A stretch of 64,000 bases of DNA from Roseivirga misakiensis (GTDB lineage: Bacteria > Bacteroidota > Bacteroidia > Cytophagales > Cyclobacteriaceae): the NCBI RefSeq assembly GCF_001747105.1, contig NZ_MDGQ01000004.1:1-64000 (forward strand), read 5' to 3'. A program made the translations under genes and the position numbers. Of the stretch, positions 25,395-45,124 are shown in pieces; within the stretch, counting starts at the first letter, position 1, and every line of letters starts with the position of its first letter. The notes beneath the pieces were generated by a model, which saw only the letters and a list, made by a program, of their open reading frames with translations, searched no databases and was not told where the DNA came from.

Positions 25395-28217
25395 ATGGGG
25401 ATTATAAGACGCTTTGAGCAAAACGTATCCAGACAATTGCATTGTGCCGTCGCAGCGAGTGCTTTGTTCATCTTTTTAACGACTGCTATTCAAGCCCAGG
25501 TCATTGAAAAAGCTTATATCTCAACAGATAAAGATATTTACGCACCAGAGGATACCATCTGGTTTAAGGGCTATGTCTTTGACCAATTCAACTCAATTTC
25601 CGATAGCAGCTTAGCCTTTCATTTGATCCTCGTCAATGTAGATGGGATAAAGATCAGTAGATCTTCTTGGGCATTGAATGGAGGAGTAACCGATGGCTTC
25701 TTGATTGCTCCAGAAAACGAAGGCAGGTTTAGAATAAAGGCGATCAGTGGGCAAATGATAGGATCAAGAACTGATCAGTCATTTGAAAAAGACATCTATG
25801 TGCGTTCGGATCTTGCAGATGAAATCGAAGTTCAAGCCTTTCCAAATTTCGAGACCTACAACTATTCAGGTAATAACTCTATAGATATTTTCACACGGTA
25901 TTCTGCAAATAATGCCGCCCCAGAAGTCAAATTAACTTATCAACTCCTTTCTGGAGAGGATCAAATAAAAAAAGGCAGGCTCAAGACTACCCAAGACGGG
26001 AAAGTCACACTAGACCTTCAAAATATCAAGCAGGAATACACCGACCTGAGGCTTGTTATCGAAAGCGAAGATAAAAGGCTTTCTAAGCCTGTCAAATTGA
26101 CTCTTCCCATCCAAAAAACTCAACCTAAAATAGATTTACAGTTCTTTCCAGAAGGAGGAGATTTGATTAAAAACACTGTTTCCAAAGTGGCTTTCAAAGC
26201 GATAAATGAAAACGGCATTCCCATAGACTTCAAGGGTCTAATTATCGACAGTAATGGTAAAATTGTGGCGGCGGCCGAAAGTTATTACAAGGGTACAGGG
26301 TCCTTCAATTTAAAACCTGAAAATGGCAAAGAGTACTTCTTCAAAATTAATTCGCCTTTCAAAATCGATTCTCTTTATAAGTTACCATCTGCAAAACAAT
26401 CTGGTGTTTCCCTAAGCATTACAGACGAACAAAAAGATGGTAAACAATACGCTATTGTAAAAGCAAGCAATGACCTAGTAGGTAAAAATGGAAAACTATT
26501 AATCACCAAAAACAATCAGGTGATCAGCAATTCTGACTTTATATTTTCTGGGCAAGAAAACTGGGAAGTGGCATATGAAAATTTAGGAGTCGGCACATTT
26601 AGCTTCAAGGTACTTAATCAAAACAATGATCCATTGGCTGAAAGACTTTTTTTCTCCAATGTTAAACAACAGCTCAACGTGAATTTAAGTACTAACAAAG
26701 CCGAATATGAGGCACGTGAAAAAGTTGAGGCTAAAATTCGGGTTACCGATTATAATGGCAACCCAGTTGTAGGGAATTTCTCTTTTACTGTATTCGATTA
26801 TACAAGGAATGGTAATCCTTTGCCAGATCAACCAAACCTACTTGCCCAAATACTGTTAACCTCTGAACTTAAGGGCCATATACCAACACCTAATTTTTAC
26901 TTTTCAAAGGACGCTAAGGCTATAAAAGCACTCGACTTAGTGATGCTTACCAATGGCTGGAGAAAACATACTCCAAGCTCCATAGTGGACATAGAAGGAC
27001 TTTATGGGAAATTAATCTATAAGAACATTAAAAGAAAGCCTTTAAAAAACAGGGATGTCTATTTCTCATCTGTAAAAAGTGGTGGTATTGAGACGTTTAA
27101 AACAGATGAAAAAGGCTTTTTCAGGATCAGTTCGACTTACTTAAAAAACAGAGGAGATTCTTTCCTCATATTTACCGGAATTAGGAATAAAAAGGATCAA
27201 CCTGGTTTATCACTAATTGATGACGTTAGACTTGAAAAACTAAAATTCTTTGATGACCTACTTCAAGCTAGACCTACCCTCACTGAAAGCCTCGCTCTAC
27301 ATGAAAAGTCAAATAAAATAAGACCGGATAAATTTCAAAATACTATTCTTTTAAACTCAGTAACAGTAGAAGCATCACGGACCAAAAAAGAATTTGTGGG
27401 CAGTTGCCCCTTAGAGTCATTTCATTTTGAGGATCCGTGGACAACCAAAAAAATTGAAGACCTCGACACAAAAAACAAAGATATTTTATCACTTCTTAAA
27501 CAAGTCGGCTATATAAAGAAATTTCAAAACCTTTATGATTGGAATCACTGGCGTACACCCAACAAGCCTACCTCTGGTGTGCTAGGGCTTTATACCGATG
27601 TCCTTGTTGGTGAGTTAAACAACAAAAGAACTGTCCCATTCCAAATCTATCTCAATTGCGAACCAGTGAATAAAATCGACCTGTTTTTTGACTACTTAAA
27701 TTTCGATATGGATGAAGGGAATTTTCATGCAAAGTATTCTATTGAAAGAATTGATACGGACTTTATAGAATCTATTTCCATCAACAAAACACATATAGAA
27801 CCACCTATTGAATATTTAACACGTCAAAGACTCACGGAATATTTTGCATCTATTCAATGGCCTATTGTCCAGATTAACACGCTTTATGATGAGGTAGTAT
27901 ATAAGCCCATTTTCACCAGTAAGATCGATTATACGATCTTTAAAAACTTCACCACTGATTTTTACTCTCCAGTTTACTCAACAGAGAAACAAAAAAAGGA
28001 TCCTGTCCCGGACTTGAGAACAACCATCCATTGGCAAGCCAACGTGATCACCAATGAAAATGGGGAAGCTAACATCTCCTACTTTAACGCTGACCGTCCC
28101 AATGAAATCAAAATAACAGTCGAAGGGGTCGATGGCTACAGCAGATTGGGGTTTGAAACCAAATCTTACAAGGTACTAGAAGGGTCATTAACGGAAGGAG
28201 GTGATAATGATGATTAG
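25395..28217 (+). CDS. MG2/TonB-plug-like secreted protein, copy 1 of 3
   Basis: 940 residues with a signal peptide (hydrophobic run 17-35, ending IQAQ). The mature start carries a macroglobulin MG2-like motif (TDKDIYAPEDTIWFKGY), followed by several Ig-like domains, a conserved DLVMLTNGWRKH, then a segment like a TonB plug (NTILLNSVTVEASR, a vYLNCEPVNKI strand, IESISINK) and a last domain with PVPDLRTTIHWQANVIT and EGVDGYSRLGF. No thioester (CxEQ) is present. Two homologues follow directly. I recall this layout as a Bacteroidota family without a known role; secretion, surface adhesion or transport partner are all open. This copy is the most diverged of the three. Confidence 0.8.
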   Translation: MGIIRRFEQNVSRQLHCAVAASALFIFLTTAIQAQVIEKAYISTDKDIYAPEDTIWFKGYVFDQFNSISDSSLAFHLILVNVDGIKISRSSWALNGGVTDGFLIAPENEGRFRIKAISGQMIGSRTDQSFEKDIYVRSDLADEIEVQAFPNFETYNYSGNNSIDIFTRYSANNAAPEVKLTYQLLSGEDQIKKGRLKTTQDGKVTLDLQNIKQEYTDLRLVIESEDKRLSKPVKLTLPIQKTQPKIDLQFFPEGGDLIKNTVSKVAFKAINENGIPIDFKGLIIDSNGKIVAAAESYYKGTGSFNLKPENGKEYFFKINSPFKIDSLYKLPSAKQSGVSLSITDEQKDGKQYAIVKASNDLVGKNGKLLITKNNQVISNSDFIFSGQENWEVAYENLGVGTFSFKVLNQNNDPLAERLFFSNVKQQLNVNLSTNKAEYEAREKVEAKIRVTDYNGNPVVGNFSFTVFDYTRNGNPLPDQPNLLAQILLTSELKGHIPTPNFYFSKDAKAIKALDLVMLTNGWRKHTPSSIVDIEGLYGKLIYKNIKRKPLKNRDVYFSSVKSGGIETFKTDEKGFFRISSTYLKNRGDSFLIFTGIRNKKDQPGLSLIDDVRLEKLKFFDDLLQARPTLTESLALHEKSNKIRPDKFQNTILLNSVTVEASRTKKEFVGSCPLESFHFEDPWTTKKIEDLDTKNKDILSLLKQVGYIKKFQNLYDWNHWRTPNKPTSGVLGLYTDVLVGELNNKRTVPFQIYLNCEPVNKIDLFFDYLNFDMDEGNFHAKYSIERIDTDFIESISINKTHIEPPIEYLTRQRLTEYFASIQWPIVQINTLYDEVVYKPIFTSKIDYTIFKNFTTDFYSPVYSTEKQKKDPVPDLRTTIHWQANVITNENGEANISYFNADRPNEIKITVEGVDGYSRLGFETKSYKVLEGSLTEGGDNDD
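28195..28205 (+). promoter_or_regulatory. Full-length Shine-Dalgarno match before copy 2
   Basis: AAGGAGGTGAT is the full complement of the usual 16S 3' tail. It lies inside the last codons of copy 1, and ATG codons follow at 28207 and 28210. Shine-Dalgarno sites are uncommon in Bacteroidota, so this stands out. It also supports an internal start over the GTG at 28201. Confidence 0.5.
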
Positions 28218-31014
28218 CAGGTTTATACTCTTAACAGCATTCTTTTTTATCGGTCATGTAAGTTTTACACAGGTAGTCGAAAAAAGCCATCTCAGTACCG
28301 ATAAAGATATTTATGCACCTCAAGACACTATCTGGTTTAAGGGATATAGTTTCAATATACTCAATCAGCTTTCGGAAGCCAGTTTAGCACTTCACGTACT
28401 GATGGTGGACGGTGAAGGCAATAAAAAGACAAATACTAGCTGGGAATTAACCGATGGAATCACCGATGGATACTTGGTCGCTCCAAAACTCGAAGGTAAA
28501 TATCGAATAATAGCGGTGACGGGTCAAATGATCGGCAGTCCTATGGAGCAAACTTTCACAAAAGACATATTCGTTCGTTCCGAAATAGCTGATGAAATTG
28601 AGGTGCTCGCATTTCCACAGTTTGAAACTTACATCGCCGATGGTGAAAATGCCATTGACATTTTCACCCGATACTCCACTAACAATGAAGCCCCAGAGGT
28701 AAAATTATCCTACACCATTCTTTCTAATGGCCAATCGATTAAAAAAGGGAGACTAAAGACTTCTACTGAAGGAAAAGTGACCCTCAATATTGAAAAGCTC
28801 AAAAAGGACATTGGAACTGAATTCAGCCTCCTAATCGAAAGTGATGACAAAAGACTAACCAAACCTATTAAGCTCACTGTTCCTGTTGCGGTTCAGTCCA
28901 AAAATATCGATCTGCAATTCTTCCCTGAAGGTGGAGAACTGATCGCTGGAATGGTCAATAAAGTCGCCTATAAAGCAATCGATCAAAATGGGGAGGCCTT
29001 TGATCTAAAAGGAGTGATTTTAGATGACAAAGGAAAAATGGTCGCAGCAAGCGAAAGCTTTTATCAAGGCATGGGTAGTTTCGATTTGCTTCCCGATACT
29101 AATTCATCCTACTTCTTCAAAGTAACTGGACCTGTTAAAATTGACTCGCTCTACAAACTTCCACGGGTCGAAAAATCAGGAATACAATTGAGTATCAAAC
29201 AACTGAGCGATTCTTCTAAGAGGTATGCCTTCGTAAAACCCACAGCTGATCTACATGGTCAAAAAGGCAAGTTTGTCATTGCTAAAAGTGATAAGATCAT
29301 TAGCTCGATCGAATTCACATTCTCCGAACAGGAATATTGGCAAATCGCCTCAGAAAATCTGGGTGTTGGGGTTTATAATCTTAGGGTAACTGACGCAAAC
29401 GACAAACCGATCGCAGAACGGTTATTATTTGCCAACTCGGATAGTCAGCTTGATATCAATGTTCAAACTGATAAAAAAGCCTATTCAGCCAGAGAACTTG
29501 TTGAGGCTAAAATCACAGTCAAAGACAAATATGGCCTACCCGTACAAGGTAACTTCTCTTTCGCAGCGATAGACGCTATAAGAACTCAAAGCCCATCACC
29601 TGATCAGCCCAATTTACTAGCACAAATTCTCCTAACATCAGATTTGAGAGGCAGTATACCAACGCCAAACTTCTATTTTACTTCTGATAGAAAAGCCGAA
29701 GCGGCACTCGATTTAGTAATGCTAACCAATGGATGGAGACGCTATGTTCCGAGTACTATTATTGATAGCGAGGGATTGGCTGGTAGCTTGCACAAAACCA
29801 ATAGAAAGCGAAAGTTATTGACTGACCGTGAGGTTGTTTTAACTTCTTTAAAAAGTGGTGGCATAGATTATTTTAAAGTAGACAGTTCTGGTCTATTCAA
29901 AATCCCATCTTCATACTTGAGAGCAAAAGGAGACTCATTTCTGATATTCTCCGAAAGAAGGAATGAGAAAGATAAATTCAGCCTAATACCAAACCAAGAC
30001 AAACGAATTGCCAAAGACAAAGCACTATTCGGATATACCCAAGGAGTTTTAAAAGCAGGCCTTCAACAAGATCTAAGGCTATATGAAAAAGCTTTCAAAC
30101 TTAGACCTGATCGTTTTCAAAATACGCTACTCCTGAATTCTGTAGTCGTGGAAGGAAAAAGCTTACTACCTGATGGGACTTGCAAATTGGAAGATTATCA
30201 TAATCAATGGCCCTGGTATACAAAAACTCGAGAAGAGTTAAATCTCGGCGACTATGGCATAGTTGATTTAGTAACGCAAGTTAACCCATATGAAACCGTC
30301 GGTGGTTTTGGAGACGCCATTTTCAGTAGAACAAAATTGTATGGTACGTGGCCTATGAGGGTATATATAAACTGTGTACCTATACCAAGAATCGAATACA
30401 GAATGATAAGAGTCAGCAGTGGGCCAGCAAGAGAAATAACTCAAGTCAATACTGATAACGCTGATAGAAACGGCAAAGCCGTTGAAGAACAAGAGCCGTG
30501 GGGAAGCACACTTGGTCCGATGAATTCGAGCGATTATTTTGTTAGGGAAAGGGAATACAACTTCGCTAAAACGGTAAACAGGATTGATCTTCGAAACATT
30601 GAGTCAATTTCTATCAATACGACTACACAAATACTCACTCGGATGGATCATGAGCAGAACGTTTTTCCAATTCTAAATATAAACACCATCAATGATCAGC
30701 TTATTTATAAGCCAATTTTCGATATGAAGTACTTCCATAGTACTTACCAACACTACACTATAGAATTTTACTCTCCAGTTTACGCAACAGAGAAACAAAA
30801 AAATGATCCCGTCCCGGACCTTAGGACAACAATCTTTTGGCAGGCGAACGTGATCACCGATGAGAACGGTCAAGCGTTAATTTCATATTACAACGCAGAT
30901 AGACCTAACGAAATAAAACTAATAGTCGAAGGAGTTGACGGCTACAGCAGACTGGGCTTTGGTACATTAAAATATCAAGTAGAAGGGGGTCCCGTGACAG
31001 AAGGAGGTCAGTAA
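28207..31014 (+). CDS. MG2/TonB-plug-like secreted protein, copy 2 of 3
   Basis: About 935 residues from ATG 28207 (28210 is equally good). Signal peptide ending near VSFTQ, MG2-like motif TDKDIYAPQDTIWFKGY, Ig-like domains, LNSVVVEGKS plug-like start, a plug-like segment with RVYINCVPIPRIEYRMI, and the same C-terminal block as copy 1 (PVPDLRTTIFWQANVIT). It overlaps the end of copy 1, so both are one transcript. A tract of its 5' part (28321-28500) matches copy 3 at 174 of 180 bases by hand count. The region around residues 600-830 differs strongly from the other copies, so this may be the variable binding part. Function unknown. Confidence 0.8.
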   Translation: MMISRFILLTAFFFIGHVSFTQVVEKSHLSTDKDIYAPQDTIWFKGYSFNILNQLSEASLALHVLMVDGEGNKKTNTSWELTDGITDGYLVAPKLEGKYRIIAVTGQMIGSPMEQTFTKDIFVRSEIADEIEVLAFPQFETYIADGENAIDIFTRYSTNNEAPEVKLSYTILSNGQSIKKGRLKTSTEGKVTLNIEKLKKDIGTEFSLLIESDDKRLTKPIKLTVPVAVQSKNIDLQFFPEGGELIAGMVNKVAYKAIDQNGEAFDLKGVILDDKGKMVAASESFYQGMGSFDLLPDTNSSYFFKVTGPVKIDSLYKLPRVEKSGIQLSIKQLSDSSKRYAFVKPTADLHGQKGKFVIAKSDKIISSIEFTFSEQEYWQIASENLGVGVYNLRVTDANDKPIAERLLFANSDSQLDINVQTDKKAYSARELVEAKITVKDKYGLPVQGNFSFAAIDAIRTQSPSPDQPNLLAQILLTSDLRGSIPTPNFYFTSDRKAEAALDLVMLTNGWRRYVPSTIIDSEGLAGSLHKTNRKRKLLTDREVVLTSLKSGGIDYFKVDSSGLFKIPSSYLRAKGDSFLIFSERRNEKDKFSLIPNQDKRIAKDKALFGYTQGVLKAGLQQDLRLYEKAFKLRPDRFQNTLLLNSVVVEGKSLLPDGTCKLEDYHNQWPWYTKTREELNLGDYGIVDLVTQVNPYETVGGFGDAIFSRTKLYGTWPMRVYINCVPIPRIEYRMIRVSSGPAREITQVNTDNADRNGKAVEEQEPWGSTLGPMNSSDYFVREREYNFAKTVNRIDLRNIESISINTTTQILTRMDHEQNVFPILNINTINDQLIYKPIFDMKYFHSTYQHYTIEFYSPVYATEKQKNDPVPDLRTTIFWQANVITDENGQALISYYNADRPNEIKLIVEGVDGYSRLGFGTLKYQVEGGPVTEGGQ

Positions 31015-31092
31015 GGTTTTAACTGAACAATAGGTGCTAATAAGTCGTTTTTATATTTAGAATCAGCTTAACCACACACAAAACCAAAGCTT

Positions 31093-33801
31093 ATGAGATT
31101 CTTCATCGTATTAGTAAGCTCTATCCTTCTTTCAATCACTTGCTCAGCTCAGGTAATTGAAAAGGCCCACCTCTCAACAGATAAAGACATTTATGCACCT
31201 CAAGACACTATCTGGTTTAAGGGCTATAGTTTCGATATGCTCAATCAGCTTTCAGAAGCCAGTTTAGCACTTCACGTGCTGATGGTGGACGGTGAAGGCA
31301 ATAAAAAGACAAATACTAGCTGGGAATTAACCGATGGAATCACCGATGGATACTTGGTCGCCCCAAAACTCGAAGGTAAATATCGAATAATAGCTGTAAC
31401 TGGTCAAATGATTGGCAGCCCAGCAGAGCAGGCTTTCACTAAAGACATATTCGTACGATCAGAAATAGCCGATGAAATTGAAGTTTTAGGCTTCCCGAAA
31501 TTTGATACTTACGACCCCAACAGTGAAAATGAAATAGATATTTTCACACGATACTCCACTAACAATGAAGCTCCTGAGGTAAAACTATCTTACACTATCT
31601 TAAATGAAGGCAAATCCATTAAAAAAGGAAGATTAAAGACCTCAACAGAAGGAAAAGTCACCCTCAATCTTAAAGAACTAAAGAGAAATAGCAACAAAGA
31701 ATTCACCCTGCTAATCGAAAGTCGAGACAAACGACTGACTAAACCTATTAAGCTGACCGTTCCCATTGCTGTTCCATCAAAAAGTATCGATTTGCAATTT
31801 TTTCCAGAAGGTGGGAACATAATCGCTGGAATGGTAAATAAAGTCGCTTACAAAGCAATCGATCAAAATGGAGAGGCCTTTGACCTGAAAGGAGTGATTC
31901 TGGATGAAAAGGGGAAAATGGTGGCATCAAGCCAAAGCTTCTATCAAGGCACGGGGAGTTTTGATCTGTTGCCCAATGCCAATTCAGCCTATTACTTTAA
32001 AATCAATGAGCCGTTCAAAATTGACTCGCTGTATAGGCTCCCTGAAATAAGAAAATCAGGGATTCAACTGAGTCTAGCAAAATTAGGTGGTGCGCCTGAA
32101 AAGTATGCAGCCGTTAAAGCAACGCCTGACCGATATGGACAAAAAGGAAAGTTTATCATTGCCAAGAATGACTCGATAATCAGTTCGGTGCCATTTGAGT
32201 TTTCCAAACAAGAAAACTGGCAGATTGCCTTTAACAATCTTGGTGTTGGGGTCTATAATCTTCGGGTAACCGATATCAATAATATACCGCTGGCAGAACG
32301 GTTATTCTTTGCCAACTCAGACAACCAATTGAACATCAATATTGAAACCGATAAAAAAGAATATGCAGCAAGAGAACTTGTTCAGGCTAAAATTAGGGTA
32401 CTTGATGAAGATGGCTTCCCTGTAGAAGGCAACTTCTCATTTGCTGCCGTCGATGCTTTAAGAACAAAAAGCCCTCTACCCGAACAACCCAATTTATTGG
32501 CCCAAATACTACTCGCTTCAGATCTTATGGGCCATGTGCCCACACCTAATTTCTACTTCTCCGGTAATGAAAAATCAGAAAAAGCGCTCGACTTGGTGAT
32601 GCTAACCAATGGCTGGAGAAGATATGAACCTTCAATCATTACTGACCCAGAGCAAATTACTGGAAGCCTTCATAGGCGGAATAGGAAAAGAAAGTTGTTA
32701 AAAGACCGGGAAGTAGTTCTATTTCCAATTCGGGGCGGTAGTCTAAAGTCATTTGAAGTTGACAAAACCGGTGTTTTTAGAATCCCATCTACTTATTTAA
32801 AATCTCTTGGTGACTCCTTCCTAATTACATCTAACAAAATGACGGAGCGGGATAAATTCAGCTTAATACCAAATCAAGAGAAAAGGATTGCAAGGTCAAG
32901 TCATCTTGCACGGTATACAGAATATTATCGAGATAAATATTTACAAGACGACAATTTATTATTTCACCAAGAATTTAAGTTATCGCCGGATAGGTTTCAA
33001 AACACTCTATTACTTGGCGCTGTAATAGTAGAAGATAATGGGAAAATATCGTATGCTGGCTGTGATTTAAGGGATTTTCATTTTCAGGACCCTTGGAATA
33101 CTAAAATGGTTGAAGAACTGGATATGACAGACTTAGACATTCTAGCCATACTAAAGCAGGTAAATCCAGAAATACATGATATCGGAAACTTTAGTCCAGA
33201 CCCTGGGAAGCAGGCTATGATATACGACGTTTTAATGACTAAAGGTAGACCCATAAGAATTCAACTCAATTGTGAACCTATGAAGATTATCGATTTTGTT
33301 CAAAGAGATAGCACCATTACTGATGGACAGTACTTTGTAAGAGAAAAGCTTAACCGTATAGATTGGGGAAACATTGAATCGATATCATACAACAGAACTT
33401 TCTTACCTGGGCCAAATAGAGCTCCGGATATCTATTTTGAGGAAATTACTTTCCCAATAGTAAACATCAATACGATTAACGATCAACTTATTTACAAGCC
33501 AATGTTCAATCGAAAGTTCTTTCATAGTACCTATCAGCACTACACTACTGAATTCTATGCTCCTGTTTATGAAACAGAAAAGCAAAAGAATGATCCAGTA
33601 CCAGATTTGAGAACTACCATTTTCTGGAAAGCTAATGTGATCACCAACGAAAATGGAGAAGCTACCATCTCCTATTACAATGCTGATCGTCCTAATGAAA
33701 TTAAACTGACTGTCGAAGGAGTAGATAGCTACAGCAGACTGGGATTTGGTACATTAAAATATCAAGTCGAAGAAGGGCCCGTGACAGAAGGTGGTCAGTA
33801 A
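31093..33801 (+). CDS. MG2/TonB-plug-like secreted protein, copy 3 of 3
   Basis: 902 residues with a clean signal peptide (to CSAQ). It has the same order as copies 1 and 2: MG2-like motif, Ig-like domains, DLVMLTNGWRRYEP, plug-like segment with RIQLNCEPMKIIDF, and the terminal PVPDLRTTIFWKANVIT block ending VTEGGQ. It begins 78 bases after copy 2, and a weak -7-like TATATTTA lies in that gap. The 5' part is close to identical with copy 2, while the segment after residue 600 is only alignable in short blocks. This is tandem duplication with later gene conversion, by inference. Confidence 0.8.
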   Translation: MRFFIVLVSSILLSITCSAQVIEKAHLSTDKDIYAPQDTIWFKGYSFDMLNQLSEASLALHVLMVDGEGNKKTNTSWELTDGITDGYLVAPKLEGKYRIIAVTGQMIGSPAEQAFTKDIFVRSEIADEIEVLGFPKFDTYDPNSENEIDIFTRYSTNNEAPEVKLSYTILNEGKSIKKGRLKTSTEGKVTLNLKELKRNSNKEFTLLIESRDKRLTKPIKLTVPIAVPSKSIDLQFFPEGGNIIAGMVNKVAYKAIDQNGEAFDLKGVILDEKGKMVASSQSFYQGTGSFDLLPNANSAYYFKINEPFKIDSLYRLPEIRKSGIQLSLAKLGGAPEKYAAVKATPDRYGQKGKFIIAKNDSIISSVPFEFSKQENWQIAFNNLGVGVYNLRVTDINNIPLAERLFFANSDNQLNINIETDKKEYAARELVQAKIRVLDEDGFPVEGNFSFAAVDALRTKSPLPEQPNLLAQILLASDLMGHVPTPNFYFSGNEKSEKALDLVMLTNGWRRYEPSIITDPEQITGSLHRRNRKRKLLKDREVVLFPIRGGSLKSFEVDKTGVFRIPSTYLKSLGDSFLITSNKMTERDKFSLIPNQEKRIARSSHLARYTEYYRDKYLQDDNLLFHQEFKLSPDRFQNTLLLGAVIVEDNGKISYAGCDLRDFHFQDPWNTKMVEELDMTDLDILAILKQVNPEIHDIGNFSPDPGKQAMIYDVLMTKGRPIRIQLNCEPMKIIDFVQRDSTITDGQYFVREKLNRIDWGNIESISYNRTFLPGPNRAPDIYFEEITFPIVNINTINDQLIYKPMFNRKFFHSTYQHYTTEFYAPVYETEKQKNDPVPDLRTTIFWKANVITNENGEATISYYNADRPNEIKLTVEGVDSYSRLGFGTLKYQVEEGPVTEGGQ

Positions 33802-39841: not shown

Positions 39842-39898
39842 AACAAATCAGATTTGCTGTGAATATAATAGTAAAGGATTTGAGAGTGAAGTTGAAGG

Positions 39899-40453
39899 CT
39901 ATAAATCCTCAGCGATAGTGAAGAGAACCTCCATTGTATAGATACCGGGAGAATATGTAAAACCTGGTGTTAACCGATAACTAATTCGAAAGCGATGTGT
40001 AAATGGATCGGAATTGGAATCACCAGGGTCGTTAGTACCAATACCTGAGCCAGTGGTGGCATCATTCCCAACAGACCCAATCAAGTAAGTTGGAGTAGAA
40101 ATATCTTGAAGTTGAAAAAAGGCGGCTTCTTGTGAAGTAAGACCAGGACTATTGGCTCGTATGGATAAGATGCTTACTGGAACGTTATCATCCCCTGCGT
40201 CAGAATAGGATTGAACAAGATCCCAGAAACCCGGAGTAACAGTTTGGGTTCCCACATATAGGTCCCATTCTACTGTAGATTCTATGGTTACCTCTGAAGC
40301 ATTGCCTAAAATGGCGCCTGTGGTATAGGATCGTATAGAATTAAATGTAAAAACGAGGTCAGTGCCTTTAGTAATCGTTAAGTCAATGGTTTGACCAGAG
40401 CACCAAAAGACCATAAAGAATTGCAAGACCGTCGCCAGTACCAGTGTCCGCAT
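39899..40453 (-). CDS. Small secreted subunit B, chaperone-usher-like locus
   Basis: 184 residues from ATG 40451-40453, chosen because it opens the signal peptide MRTLVLATVLQFFMVFWCSGQ; the longer frame to 40507 would contain a second hydrophobic run and cross the palindrome. The mature part is beta-rich and similar to subunit A: both contain the pattern L-T-(L/I) with F-x-F at the front, xNAxEx and VxWDL, and end in the same C-terminal tail (YRLTPGF..SPGIYTMEV, IAEDL). It carries no cysteine after the signal. This looks like the subunit class of a chaperone-usher-like pathway; I do not assign a Pfam family. Confidence 0.7.
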   Translation of the reverse strand: MRTLVLATVLQFFMVFWCSGQTIDLTITKGTDLVFTFNSIRSYTTGAILGNASEVTIESTVEWDLYVGTQTVTPGFWDLVQSYSDAGDDNVPVSILSIRANSPGLTSQEAAFFQLQDISTPTYLIGSVGNDATTGSGIGTNDPGDSNSDPFTHRFRISYRLTPGFTYSPGIYTMEVLFTIAEDL

Positions 40454-40472
40454 GCATAAAGTTATAAATATT

Positions 40473-40502
40473 AAAAGAGGTAACAATATTGTTACCCCTT
40501 TT
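40473..40502. repeat. 30-bp near-perfect palindrome between the two subunit genes
   Basis: AAAAGAGGTAACAAT is followed directly by ATTGTTACCCCTTTT; 14 of 15 positions match in reverse complement, and the core GGTAACAATATTGTTACC (40479-40496) is perfect. On the minus strand the arm ends in CTTTT, so it may act as a weak terminator or attenuator that lowers subunit B relative to A. As an alternative it could be an operator. Confidence 0.6.
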
Positions 40503-40562
40503 ACCAATCAACATAAATCGAACTAACTTATTTACTACGTCTTAGTAAAAGTTATGTCTTTA

Positions 40563-41186
40563 TTAAAGGTCTTCTGCTAGCGTGTAAATAAGGTTGATAC
40601 CGTAGTATCCAGCAGTATAAGTATCTAATCCTGGAGATAATCTGTAGTCTATTCTGAACTGGTGAGTATCAGGAGACGTTAGGTAAGATCCTGGAGCGCC
40701 TGGAGCATCACCAGCATCAACAGTACCTGTTACATCACCAATAATTGGTAACTGATCAGTACCAGTTAAGTTGAAGTAGGTATTAGCCACTCCACCCCCA
40801 TCGATCAATGAGTTACCAGCAGCGTCAATAGCTCTAACACCAATGATGTCTGATAAAACAGCAGTAGAACCTGCAGAAGAATACGTTTCGAAATTCTCCC
40901 AAGTCGCAGTCTCAGCATTTACAGCTAAATCCCAAGCAACAGTAGCTTCTACTCTTAATTCAGTAGCATTTGTTTTAGTAATACCGTTTTGGTACTGAGG
41001 AATAGTACTAAATACGAAATCTAAGTTAGGGTTTGTTACCAAAGTGAGATCAAGTACACCTTGTAGCTCCAAAGAGACATATACATTTTCATTGTCTGTT
41101 GGAAGTTGTGCGAACGCCTTTGAAGTGAACGCGAAGGATACTAATGCCACTGCGGCTAACATCCTGAGTTTAATTACATTTTTCAT
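40563..41186 (-). CDS. Small secreted subunit A, chaperone-usher-like locus
   Basis: 207 residues with a signal peptide (MKNVIKLRMLAAVALVSFAF, cleaved after KAFAQ). The mature protein is beta-rich with a repeat of Thr/Ala/Gly; it shares LELQGVLDLTLVT-type strands, NATELRVEATVAWDL and the C-terminal YRLSPGLDTYTAGYYG and LAEDL with subunit B. No cysteine is present, so no disulfide stabilises it, unlike many pilins. It is probably the main secreted subunit, because it lies first in the short transcript. Confidence 0.72.
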   Translation of the reverse strand: MKNVIKLRMLAAVALVSFAFTSKAFAQLPTDNENVYVSLELQGVLDLTLVTNPNLDFVFSTIPQYQNGITKTNATELRVEATVAWDLAVNAETATWENFETYSSAGSTAVLSDIIGVRAIDAAGNSLIDGGGVANTYFNLTGTDQLPIIGDVTGTVDAGDAPGAPGSYLTSPDTHQFRIDYRLSPGLDTYTAGYYGINLIYTLAEDL

Positions 41187-41247
41187 GATATAAATGTTTA
41201 GGTTAAAAGTTTCGATACGTGAATGTATGGACTTATTTTCATATATA

Positions 41248-41255
41248 CAAATTAA
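41248..41255 (-). promoter_or_regulatory. Probable -7 element for the subunit genes
   Basis: TTAATTTG on the minus strand differs from TAnnTTTG by one base and lies 61 bases before the subunit A start. It would let the subunits be made apart from the chaperone and usher-like genes. Confidence 0.3.
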
Positions 41256-41348
41256 CAGTAAAACATTTTGTTATTTTTCTCGCTATCATCCCCTCTATAT
41301 CAGGACAATAGCCTCGTTTTACTGCATAAGTACTTAAATCCAACATTA

Positions 41349-42197
41349 TTAATTATTTCCCCTTTGGGGTATTAAAATTTCCATTTCAGCTGCTTCAACT
41401 TCATCACGATTTCCATAATCCATCACTGCTAAAACAGAGTAGCGTCCAGGTGGAATATCGGGTGGAATATTGAAAACTGTATTTCTATTAAGTGCTGGCA
41501 ACATGGTAAAACCGCGGGTAGTAACACGTTTAGTCTCACCTGTGGACAGACTGGTTAATTCTATATATGAGTTGCATCTCAAGAATGTCTCTCCTGCATT
41601 CTTCATTTTTACGGTAAACTTGTTTTCTTCAAAATCTAACCCTGTGATTTCGCCCCGAGAATCGGTGGCACTTGGAGGGGTCTGAAAAATATAGACGCCA
41701 AATCGGTAGGATTGATTTACTTGGACTTTTAGACCTTCGCCACTACCCTGCCCATCATTTTCTGGCGCTCTCAACTGCACGTAGGCGACGGCCCATCTTG
41801 CAATTAGTGCTGCTGAATCAGCAGGTACATCCATGAGCACAGAAATCTCTTGATTCTCTCCAGGTTCTAATTCGAAAACTGCTGGCGTGGCTGTTAGCCA
41901 AGAAGCACAACTTCTAGATTGTGTGCCTTGTGCCGAAAACTGACTCTTCCCAGCCACATTGGCCGAAAAGTCTCCAAAAGTCACCTGAAAGCCTTGCCTA
42001 TCAGCCGAGTTATTAGCGACAGTGATTCTGCTAGTCCCAGAACCACCAGGTGTCACCTTATAGTTTATTCTAGTCGGTGAGGTCGAAATTTTCTGAGCAA
42101 CCGAATCCCACGCAAAAAAGGCCAACAGCAAAAGCATTATTGAAGCTATTCTCATCAGCCTAAAGTCTTTAGCGTTTAATTTCATGTTCTTAATCAT
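41349..42197 (-). CDS. Periplasmic chaperone-like protein (PapD-type fold)
   Basis: 282 residues; a hydrophobic segment (about 15-34) ends at SVAQ. Two Ig-like domains follow: the first (about 36-165) has the pattern SPTRINYKVTPGGSGTSRITVAN and ELEPGENQEISVLMDVP, as in pilus chaperones and related cell-adhesion proteins, the second (about 185-280) ends in a typical beta-sandwich. The start codon overlaps the usher-like stop (TAATG). I did not find a clear Arg-Lys carboxylate anchor pair, so the call rests on fold-like features and genome context. Confidence 0.7.
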   Translation of the reverse strand: MIKNMKLNAKDFRLMRIASIMLLLLAFFAWDSVAQKISTSPTRINYKVTPGGSGTSRITVANNSADRQGFQVTFGDFSANVAGKSQFSAQGTQSRSCASWLTATPAVFELEPGENQEISVLMDVPADSAALIARWAVAYVQLRAPENDGQGSGEGLKVQVNQSYRFGVYIFQTPPSATDSRGEITGLDFEENKFTVKMKNAGETFLRCNSYIELTSLSTGETKRVTTRGFTMLPALNRNTVFNIPPDIPPGRYSVLAVMDYGNRDEVEAAEMEILIPQRGNN

Positions 42198-45124
42198 TAG
42201 TTATTGTCGAATTTCTTGATGTTCAATTTTCTTTTCTTCTCTATGAGATAATAGGTTAGTTCATAATTTGAATCTGCATTATCAATGGTCAATTCATATG
42301 AATCTTGAGCAAACTGGAACTGTTCATCTATAGTTGCTGAACTGGCATCAATCACATATTTACCAAAGGGTACGAAAATTTTAAATTTGCCATCCTTATC
42401 GGTTACTCCCGAGTAAACACGCTCATCAGATCCAATCGCTGATATTCTTATACCGCCTAGCTTCACGTCATCATAAGACCTGGAATAAGTAGCTTTCTGT
42501 GCTATTACGGTTCCTATGATCTGCACACCCCGAGTTAATGGTATAAGTAAGGTTTGGCTTTTATTCATTAGCACTGGGTTGTTTCCGGCTTTAAACCAAC
42601 CTTCATTGTCGCTTAGCATTTTTGATTTAACCAAGTAGTTACCTACTTCTAAGTTCTCAAAGCTAGCCTCTCCATTAAGGTCTGTCATAATGGTTTGGTC
42701 TTTTAAAGTGATCATTACATTCTGCACAAACTCTTCTCCCTTATCCCTTTTCCCATTTCCATCGGCGTCTTTGAACACTAGTACTTTCAGGTCGAATGCC
42801 TTACCCCCTGGCCTTTTAAATCCAAAGTCTTTTTTAATCCCAAAGCGCAAAAAGGTGTTTGCTTGATTAAAAGGCTCTAAAACTCCGTCTATTCCTTGTT
42901 GTTCATTCTGCAAAGCGATAGGGCTTTCACCTTGTTTGACAGAAACTAGCTCTGCAGCCATGGTAAAGGTGTATCCACTTTTAGCGTAATAGACGAACTC
43001 ACCTGTCATATTCGTTCTCCACCTTGCAAAGACAGATTCATAGCGGCTGTTAATTCTAGGCCTGAATAACAAGCCTTGTTTTCTGAAATAAAGAGAGGCG
43101 TAAGTTGAGATAAAGACCGACTGTGGATTAATCTGATCCTCAATAACCCTAATATTCTCTGTTACCGTAGCGGGACCGTAATTATACCTTGCTACGAAAT
43201 TCAAATTCTTATACCGAAGTCTATTCTCCCAGCGAGCTACTGGAAATGGCTCAATTTCAAAATCTGGAGCATCGGAGAACCCAGCAAAGAACCTCGTGAA
43301 AACCCTAAAACGCTTACCATTATTTCTACTTAAGCCTGCCGCTAGTCCTGAAGTTTTAACTCTTAAACCTAGAACCTCATCATCTTGATGAATTGGAGAT
43401 ACATTCATCGTTGCCTTATTCAGCCTCCATTCATAACGCAATTCATAACGATCTCTCTTATTTAATTGACTCGTAAAAAGATTTCCTCTTAAGAAGCGAA
43501 CTGGTCTATTACTATTTACTGCTCCTCTAAAACTAAGACTAGAAGTAGTTGAAAGCGGGTATCTCAAATTCAAAGCCAATTGCCTGCTTCCGCTTCTCTG
43601 AGCAAAGAATGATTCGGAATAATATGCGCCTGTGAAACCAATATTTAATTTATTAACCGACCCGAAGTATCTGAGTTCAGCGCCATATCCTGGTGTTTGA
43701 AAAACACTATCTGGATCAAAACTATCTTCTTGAACGCTATACGCACCCACAATCCCGACTCGATGTCGTTTTCCGATTCTATGGTTCACTTGCATTCTAA
43801 AAAGATGCCCGTCAATTACATTAAAATCATCTATCTGATTTACGTATTGTAATTCTACATTACTACCTTCTTTAGGTTCATACTTAATTCTACCACCTAA
43901 ATAAGTCAGGTCATTTCTACTCAACCTTCCTCCTCTATTGGCATTGGTTGCATAAATAGCTCCGACTTCAAAATTGTTGAAACGATAGCTTCCTTTTGCC
44001 CCCATGCCATTAATGAATACACCCATATTTTCACCTATACCACCCAAAGAAGCCGAATACCTAGGCGTAGAATACTGGATGAATCGATTGGCACTACGAA
44101 CTTGTGTACCACCAACGAGACTCGTTGTAATAATAGCTTGGTAGTAATAACTTAAGAAGCGTTGACTGCCTAGGTCCGCATTTCCTCGCAGGTCAAGAGA
44201 GAAGTTGGTGAAATTAGATAGAATATTATAGGAGTTTAACTCGGCGGTTAACGGTATTACAGCACTTCCCTTTCCAGAGTCAAATTTGGCTTTGTTAGAA
44301 AGCTTGGTGAAACTGACTCGGCGCCCTTTTATTTTATCGATATTGTCTACACTTGCCGCATTGATCTGCAAGCGATACTTTTTATTATTGATTTGTTCTT
44401 CTTCATCATCTGGTCGATCAGTAAAAAAGTACCCTTTGGTCTTATCTTCACTTACCCGCACATTTAGAACGAAAGTACTATCCAAACCAACTGGTAGTTC
44501 TGCATATAAGGTATTGTCTTGAATCTTCTTCCACTCGTGATCCAATACATCTAACCTGACATTCGTCGATAAATTAATTCTTATTCTTTCAACAGAATTA
44601 CCTTCGTTCACTAACCTTACATGAACACTCGCACTGTCAGATTCATTTGTAAAGTATACTTCCCGTTCTTCGACAAGCATATTCCATTTGGACACTTTCT
44701 TCACTTCAACTGACCAAGAACTTGAAGCTAGGGCATCACCGAATTGCGAATAGGCTGTTGCACTAATAAAGTAACTGGTATTACCGTTGGTTGTCCTTGA
44801 TGGGACTAATCTAATCGGGATAAACGTAGAGTCTCCTGGAGCTACGACATGAATTTTCTCTAAGTCGTTAACAACTTTCCAACCAGAAGGTGAAGATAAA
44901 TCGAGTGAAAATCGAAGGGGGCGAGAAGTTCTGTTTTTGGCTTTTATGACATTAGTCACAACATCATCCGCAGACGCAGTACCACCTGACTTGAGAAAGT
45001 CAAGGGTTAGGGCCGTATTGAGTCCATTTGTTTGAGCAGTCGCCGAATTGGCTATCATCAAACATAATGCACCAATCATGGCAATGGAGAGGAAACTCCA
45101 CAGTCTAGATAGACGCGTAGTCAA
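42197..45124 (-). CDS. Usher-like outer-membrane barrel protein
   Basis: 975 residues with a signal peptide (to TAQT). N-terminal Ig-like domains (about 35-290; KNRTSRPLRFSLDL), then a long region (about 300-750) of alternating hydrophobic beta-strands with many Arg, Tyr and Asn, then C-terminal CNA-B/SdrD-like domains (about 760-975) that start VLVFKDADGNGKRDKGEE. This order, N domain, barrel and C-terminal domains, is like ushers of the CS1/CFA or archaic type, though overall similarity to FimD or PapC cannot be judged here. A classical usher plug could not be placed. Directly coupled to the chaperone-like gene. A -7 element (TATATTTG) lies 29 bases upstream. Confidence 0.68.
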   Translation of the reverse strand: MTTRLSRLWSFLSIAMIGALCLMIANSATAQTNGLNTALTLDFLKSGGTASADDVVTNVIKAKNRTSRPLRFSLDLSSPSGWKVVNDLEKIHVVAPGDSTFIPIRLVPSRTTNGNTSYFISATAYSQFGDALASSSWSVEVKKVSKWNMLVEEREVYFTNESDSASVHVRLVNEGNSVERIRINLSTNVRLDVLDHEWKKIQDNTLYAELPVGLDSTFVLNVRVSEDKTKGYFFTDRPDDEEEQINNKKYRLQINAASVDNIDKIKGRRVSFTKLSNKAKFDSGKGSAVIPLTAELNSYNILSNFTNFSLDLRGNADLGSQRFLSYYYQAIITTSLVGGTQVRSANRFIQYSTPRYSASLGGIGENMGVFINGMGAKGSYRFNNFEVGAIYATNANRGGRLSRNDLTYLGGRIKYEPKEGSNVELQYVNQIDDFNVIDGHLFRMQVNHRIGKRHRVGIVGAYSVQEDSFDPDSVFQTPGYGAELRYFGSVNKLNIGFTGAYYSESFFAQRSGSRQLALNLRYPLSTTSSLSFRGAVNSNRPVRFLRGNLFTSQLNKRDRYELRYEWRLNKATMNVSPIHQDDEVLGLRVKTSGLAAGLSRNNGKRFRVFTRFFAGFSDAPDFEIEPFPVARWENRLRYKNLNFVARYNYGPATVTENIRVIEDQINPQSVFISTYASLYFRKQGLLFRPRINSRYESVFARWRTNMTGEFVYYAKSGYTFTMAAELVSVKQGESPIALQNEQQGIDGVLEPFNQANTFLRFGIKKDFGFKRPGGKAFDLKVLVFKDADGNGKRDKGEEFVQNVMITLKDQTIMTDLNGEASFENLEVGNYLVKSKMLSDNEGWFKAGNNPVLMNKSQTLLIPLTRGVQIIGTVIAQKATYSRSYDDVKLGGIRISAIGSDERVYSGVTDKDGKFKIFVPFGKYVIDASSATIDEQFQFAQDSYELTIDNADSNYELTYYLIEKKRKLNIKKFDNN

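Follow-up and report, generated by a model that had tools for sequence, protein, structure and literature searches.

The window analysed here comprises the first 64,000 nucleotides of contig NZ_MDGQ01000004.1 of Roseivirga misakiensis (assembly GCF_001747105.1, forward strand). Positions 39899-45124 of the window hold four adjacent open reading frames (ORFs) on the minus strand, which we call U, C, A and B in that order and which encode the candidate parts of a surface fibre system: a large outer-membrane barrel, a periplasmic chaperone and two subunits. The locus has the following features.

42197..45124, minus strand: U, usher-like outer-membrane protein, 975 amino acids, TTG start
42815..44260, minus strand: barrel part of U, residues 289-770, as predicted by an AlphaFold2 model and a DSSP strand count
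41349..42197, minus strand: C, predicted PapD-like two-domain periplasmic chaperone, 282 amino acids
40563..41186, minus strand: A, putative fibre (shaft-type) subunit with an N-terminal extension, 207 amino acids
41058..41105, minus strand: residues 28-43 of A, which form its N-terminal extension and are proposed to act as a donor strand; hydrophobic residues alternate here, and the stretch is present in A rows of the alignment and not in B rows
40470..40549, minus strand: 80-nucleotide RNA-like element in the gap from A to B, with a first hairpin, an invariant linker and a second, terminator-like hairpin, from an alignment and a covariance model
39899..40453, minus strand: B, putative tip-type subunit without the N-terminal extension, 184 amino acids, ATG at 40453

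An earlier note on the window had described four minus-strand genes in the right order for a chaperone-usher system, with the chaperone and barrel genes coupled by TAATG. The four ORFs and the U/C overlap are confirmed, and the order is repeated in other genomes of the genus. The note's two related, cysteine-free subunits also hold up: BLASTP aligns A with B at 36% identity over 169 columns (E = 2e-26), and neither A nor mature B contains a cysteine. We rejected the longer start that had been given for B (TTG at 40507, 202 amino acids), which sits within the conserved hairpin element, while the relatives fit the ATG at 40453. The locus is compact, as had been said, but it belongs to a family with many members elsewhere.

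Conservation and spread of the locus

In a genus sample of 19 genomes that includes the window's own, the order U-C-A-B is kept in 14. Because the four genes recur in the same order in 13 genomes besides that of the window, we regard their arrangement as more than chance. A match to U is absent in 4 of the 19; in genome G017, U is reduced to a fragment of 286 amino acids adjoining the peptidase gene, and in G014 the flanking genes are kept and the four-gene operon is gone. The window's own genome has a single C, and its only subunit-type proteins are A and B (E <= 1). At locus L019 and its relatives the gene upstream of U varies (a protein of 801 amino acids in L020, L021 and L025), and the downstream peptidase is constant.

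As a single query, U found no relative beyond the genus (15 of 39 genomes, 1 of 21 genera). A profile of C matched 21 of 390 genomes of the order, and a U homologue adjoins C in 13 of 14 distant loci (E from 1e-16 to 1e-54); the fourteenth, L058, is a contig of 4,151 bases. Most of these loci also contain subunit-type ORFs, which in some Spirosoma-type loci were weak or unmatched in the same search. Scanning the species genomes of GTDB with C yielded 67 loci, from Roseivirga, Pontibacter, Lacihabitans, Niastella, Longitalea, Mucilaginibacter, Litoribacter, Chitinophaga and others. A subunit-type ORF is present in 64 of them and a long U in 44, where U was counted by a length above 500 amino acids because the profile of U, when iterated, began to collect C proteins. 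For the 23 loci without a long U nearby, we searched 11 genomes and found a full-length U elsewhere in all 11.

We measured the co-occurrence of C and U in 395 Bacteroidota genomes drawn evenly from the phylum. C was matched in 65 of these (E <= 0.001) and U in 17 (E <= 1e-10). The identical 12 genomes hold both a strong C (E <= 1.5e-46) and a strong U (E <= 6.9e-64), at cut-offs that were chosen post hoc from gaps in the results; the next best matches are 5.2e-34 for C and 3.2e-22 for U. Four of the five weak U matches (G409, G499, G638 and G737) lie directly beside a weak C, and the fifth spans the C-terminal domains only.

Several variants were seen in these searches. The U-like frames of G409, G499, G638 and G737 are 478-1194 amino acids long and make up a more diverged form of the locus in other parts of the phylum. 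Three metagenome records (L090, L113 and L120), whose labels read Williamsia, Azovibrio and Sphingomonadales, hold a Bacteroidota-type locus and are probably mislabelled bins. Larger subunit-type ORFs stand beside C in L101, L115 and L123 (310, 294 and 294 amino acids), and L061 has an ORF of 338 amino acids between C and U; these are possibly tip proteins with an extra domain.

Curated models miss both this locus and its Bacteroidota relatives. The Usher family (PF00577) found nothing in the window's own genome at E <= 1, and PapD_N found nothing in 98 genomes of the order at E <= 0.01, in searches that detected the control genomes (E. coli for the first, E. coli and Caulobacter for the second). 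None of the 42 U, 61 C and 45 subunit members matched a named NCBIfam chaperone-usher family at E <= 0.1. Within the locus itself, NCBIfam gave sub-threshold matches only, Pfam matched no family in A or B, and PapD_N on C stayed below threshold (E = 0.016, 15.6 of 23 bits). Among the titles and abstracts listed, we found no report of a chaperone-usher-like system in Bacteroidota, in a search whose coverage excluded subscription papers and preprints. A paper on archaic chaperone-usher systems (PMC4654587) gives their hosts as proteobacteria, Cyanobacteria and Deinococcus-Thermus; the word Bacteroidetes is nowhere in it.

Subunits, TLP-1 filaments and the intergenic element

The two subunits of the locus differ at their N termini. 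Approximately 16 residues precede the shared domain in all of the A rows and in none of the B rows of an alignment with 10 rows of each. We classified 170 subunit ORFs over 67 loci, leaving ORFs outside 140-260 amino acids unclassified: 117 have the extension, 50 are short and 3 have an Asp-rich start. Some calls were made by eye (L116 as short, the three Asp-rich starts as tip-type), and unclear rows were counted as long. Of the 62 loci that have a classified subunit, 53 contain exactly one of tip type, short or Asp-rich, 9 contain none and no locus contains two. When the labels were shuffled 10,000 times, the number of one-tip loci averaged 25.5 and never exceeded 39. The tip-type gene is the subunit closest to C in 39 of the 53 loci; in the Roseivirga type it is the last.

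Within the extension, hydrophobic residues occupy positions 35, 37, 39 and 41 in 37, 63, 93 and 92% of the 117 rows, and positions 36, 38, 40 and 42 in 21, 6, 19 and 17%. As a sequence pattern, this alternation is that of a donor strand. In the predicted structure of A (45 sequences; mean predicted local distance difference test score (pLDDT) 85.3), the chain ends in the last core strand and the extension has no secondary structure. The extension pattern, the one-tip rule and this model are together consistent with an incomplete immunoglobulin (Ig)-like fold preceded by an N-terminal extension, and with a tip that lacks the extension.

A has relatives of solved structure in two filaments determined by cryo-electron microscopy (cryo-EM). 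Compared with the PDB, the subunit profile matches 9ikk (E = 1.1e-15) and 9ikj (E = 3.2e-14), whose chains are named TLP-2 and TLP-1 and whose entry titles read TLP-1b and TLP-1a, respectively; a matched entry is a filament of 16 chains. A alone matches TLP-1a/b at E = 5e-7 over residues 32-111, the B profile at E = 1e-4, and a relative from Pontibacter harenae at E = 1.7e-20 over its entire mature chain. The model of A aligns with TLP-1a/b at Z 13.7 over 167-168 residues, and the next chain reaches Z 7.2. Below TLP, at a common level of Z 6-7, are archaeal fibres, TasA, FimH, Csu, CfaB and EcpA; the structural neighbours of the model include TasA, CfaB, FimA, PapA and CsuA/B besides TLP-1. 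The TLP chains also start a few residues ahead of the same extension as that of A. By sequence and predicted fold, A belongs to the TLP-1a/b family of filament subunits.

We take the TLP entries to be the pond-water filaments of the CryoSeek work. When the TLP-2 chain was searched against 380 genomes of the order, 9 matched, with the A subunits of Roseivirga as the best (1.4e-8), and none of the 380 is a close source of the filament. A perspective states that such filaments had no matching sequences (PMC12967142); the primary paper on TLP may already name relatives.

An 80-nucleotide element lies between A and B. It opens with one hairpin, continues through an invariant stretch and closes with a second, terminator-like hairpin that has T after it. 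An alignment of 13 sequences shows 51 of the 80 positions to be invariant, the longest run being 30; for comparison, the A proteins of the genus are 54-90% identical to that of the window. Five pairs of the terminator stem are changed on both sides, and the covariation term is small. A model of the element found a single strong copy in each of the 14 genomes with an intact operon (E <= 1.2e-13) and a decayed copy in the operon-less G014 (9.2e-11; L171, at about 7263). It found none in G008, G009, G015 and G017 and weak matches elsewhere; a search of 18 distant loci likewise gave weak matches only, the best at E = 0.0021 (L098). Rfam gave three matches over 39850-41400, all below the curators' scores; one of these, at the element, was DapZ with 19.7 of 56 bits. 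The element may set A above B, or it may be a small RNA.

Predicted chaperone and barrel

The earlier note had assigned C the role of a two-domain PapD-like chaperone, and the profile of C aligns with 10 E. coli K-12 chaperones over both domains, at hhalign values of 95.8% with signal peptides and 80.6% (E = 1.3e-5) without them. We rely on the mature-only values, because the signal peptide by itself gave 77.1% between C and the subunits, which fell to 1.4% once trimmed. Other controls without signal peptides were similarly low (K-12 ushers, 0.4%; a neighbouring outer-membrane protein, 0.1%; the barrel of U, 0.1%; the C terminus of U, 1.8%), and the N terminus of U, itself Ig-like, reached 78.8%. 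As a single query, C gave only a chance match in the PDB. Its profile matches the solved EfmWxLIP1 over positions 38-251 (E = 0.0013), the window's own C matches WxLIP_PGBD at 0.044, below the cut-off, and its sequence has no C-terminal membrane helix.

Among 61 aligned C rows, P41, W135 and Y253 are conserved in all 61, R238 in 59, R165 in 58 and K/R134 in 57. The alignment was built without L078, L107, L111, L114 and L117, which are near-duplicates, and L132, for its length; that of U was built without L123 and L132, where U is broken or short. In CsuC, the carboxylate of the subunit is held by an Arg of strand F in domain 1 together with two residues from domain 2, one Arg and one Tyr (PMC4654587). 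R134, R238 and Y253 of C may be the counterparts of this anchor.

U has a signal peptide, Ig-like regions at approximately 39-141 and 147-274, a barrel at 289-770 and two C-terminal beta domains at 777-962. Pfam places SdrD_B, SpaA and CarboxypepD_reg-type domains at the C terminus, where PF17210 scores 35.5 bits (cut-off 29.7) and SpaA 26.7 bits (cut-off 23.1). With the N terminus modelled as two beta-sandwich regions, this accords with the CNA-B and Ig domains that had been read from the sequence. The AlphaFold2 model, built from 42 sequences, has a mean pLDDT of 83.9 and a predicted template modelling score (pTM) of 0.53, and it shows an outer-membrane barrel with one set of domains on its N-terminal side and another on its C-terminal side. 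By our own count from the DSSP list the barrel has 26 strands, which we give as approximately 26. No insertion between them is longer than about 20 residues, too short for a plug domain, so the earlier description of a barrel without a FimD-type plug is borne out. The Foldseek check that the note had proposed placed FimD at ranks 1-5 (best E = 3.9e-15), a chain of the sperm axoneme at rank 6 and PapC at rank 7. U alone matched nothing among PDB sequences.

The model gives U the form of a large barrel laid out like an usher; its likeness to ushers is structural only, and usher by descent is not demonstrable. A conserved loop with a helix at 654-663 (GPxxVxxNxRVxxDxxNPQS) could, at a guess, narrow the pore.

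Elsewhere in the window, on the plus strand at 25395-33801, is a tandem family: three related proteins, encoded side by side, have 940, 937 and 902 amino acids and near-identical starts (QVVEKxxLSTDKDIYAPxDTIWFKGY).

Proposed assembly of the fibre and competing explanations

The locus very probably encodes a donor-strand surface fibre system, which functions in the manner of a chaperone-usher pathway. The observations behind this are its gene content and order, the co-occurrence of C and U, the rule of one extension-less subunit, the predicted folds of U and A and the homology of A to TLP-1a/b. Like the classical, alternative and archaic pathways (FimC/FimD, CfaA/CfaC and CsuC/CsuD), it combines a putative two-domain Ig chaperone alignable by profile, a large barrel modelled with N- and C-terminal domains of periplasmic type, and small Ig-like subunits with an N-terminal extension, of which one per locus usually lacks it. 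Unlike those systems, U lacks a plug insertion and any sequence signal of the Usher family, ends in SdrD_B/CarboxypepD_reg-type domains and has approximately 26 strands where the barrel of FimD has 24; the subunits of the window are without cysteines. Formal membership in the described chaperone-usher classes fails, and we do not file the locus under them because both the Usher sequence family and the plug are missing.

A number of results weigh against a chaperone-usher-like pathway. For U, the TM-scores of FimD by query length are 0.27-0.28 in the top five Foldseek rows, and in a Z-scored comparison FimD (Z 16.7, 365 residues) comes second to chain B of the Mtr complex (Z 20.9, 437 residues, root-mean-square deviation 5.0), with siderophore receptors and porins at Z 14-15.5; the number of strands in U is also nearer that of Mtr chain B. 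The hhalign value of U against 8 K-12 ushers is 0.9%, and 0.2% for the barrels alone, and PF00577 is unmatched in 42 of 42 U members at E <= 0.1. For C, the single domains are weak against K-12 chaperones (17.4% for domain 1, 3.7% for domain 2), the position aligned with their conserved TR is Arg in only 14 of 61 rows, and WxLIP_PGBD is matched by 46 of 61 members (E <= 1, best 3.2e-7) compared with 6 of 61 for PapD_N (E <= 1, best 0.0025). For the subunits, 9 of 62 loci have no tip-type member, the one-tip count drops to 50 of 62 without the three long Asp-rich linker calls, and the shuffle, based on some calls made by eye, takes no account of relatedness; the count is 40 of 49 once the 13 close Roseivirga-type loci are set aside.

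The matches of C to WxLIP raise the alternative of a surface complex of the WxL/WxLIP kind (DUF916-DUF3324), in which C, a relative of the WxL-interacting protein of Gram-positives, stays bound to the subunits, no polymer is extruded and U is an anchor or an export pore. The subunits carry a W-D-L motif, and a hairpin strand of WxLIP is predicted to complete WxL (PMC10599100), which resembles strand insertion into a partner. Against such a complex, 45 subunits gave matches to 23 Pfam families (E <= 1), none of them WxL, and we rejected WxL membership of the subunits; the subunits match a solved filament and show a tip/shaft pattern of extensions, the sequence of C lacks the C-terminal membrane helix that WxLIP has, the hosts are diderm and a dedicated barrel is present. 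We consider this kind of complex quite improbable, though the sequence matches mean that C itself may be linked to WxLIP. It is also improbable that nothing polymerizes; in that case A and B would be soluble or at least non-polymeric beta-sandwich proteins that the cell secretes, U a large porin of the ordinary kind and C a periplasmic Ig protein with a general role. The barrel of U does resemble many outer-membrane proteins at similar Z, and a fibre in the genus is here a prediction; the co-occurrence of C with U, the one-tip rule and the homology of A to a filament led us to reject a plain porin with secreted proteins. Type V pili (FimA/Mfa1), which are protease-mediated and known from Porphyromonas, are donor-strand fibres of Bacteroidota and the type of fimbria described for Bacteroidetes. 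They are a very improbable explanation here and were rejected: no fimbrillin family matches A, B or the 45 subunits, the accompanying genes are chaperone-like and barrel genes, and no Cys-containing lipobox precedes mature A.

For the chaperone-usher-like pathway, strand donation, the order of assembly, export through U and the role of the element are steps that we infer, since donor-strand exchange is read here from sequences and from single-chain models of U and A. A and B would enter the periplasm by Sec, where C would bind each subunit, completing the open Ig-like fold with a strand of its own while its basic residues hold the C-terminal carboxylate. B, which has no extension, would reach U first and form the tip. 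A would then add repeatedly, each extension filling the groove of the preceding subunit, and the growing fibre would leave through the barrel of U with its periplasmic beta domains. The intergenic element may keep B at a lower level than A.

We lean, with some hesitation, towards a broader proposal: that this is a fourth chaperone-usher-like class across Bacteroidota, invisible to current models, with its own plug-less 26-strand usher and TLP-1 filaments as its product, in which the chaperone links the PapD type with Gram-positive WxLIP and the 3' RNA element of Roseivirga tunes shaft against tip. If so, the TLP-1 filaments were solved by cryo-EM ahead of any knowledge of the genes that assemble them. 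A distinct and widespread Bacteroidota assembly system with a testable tip/shaft sequence code would alter the annotation of many genomes and would supply an assembly pathway for the TLP-1 filaments.

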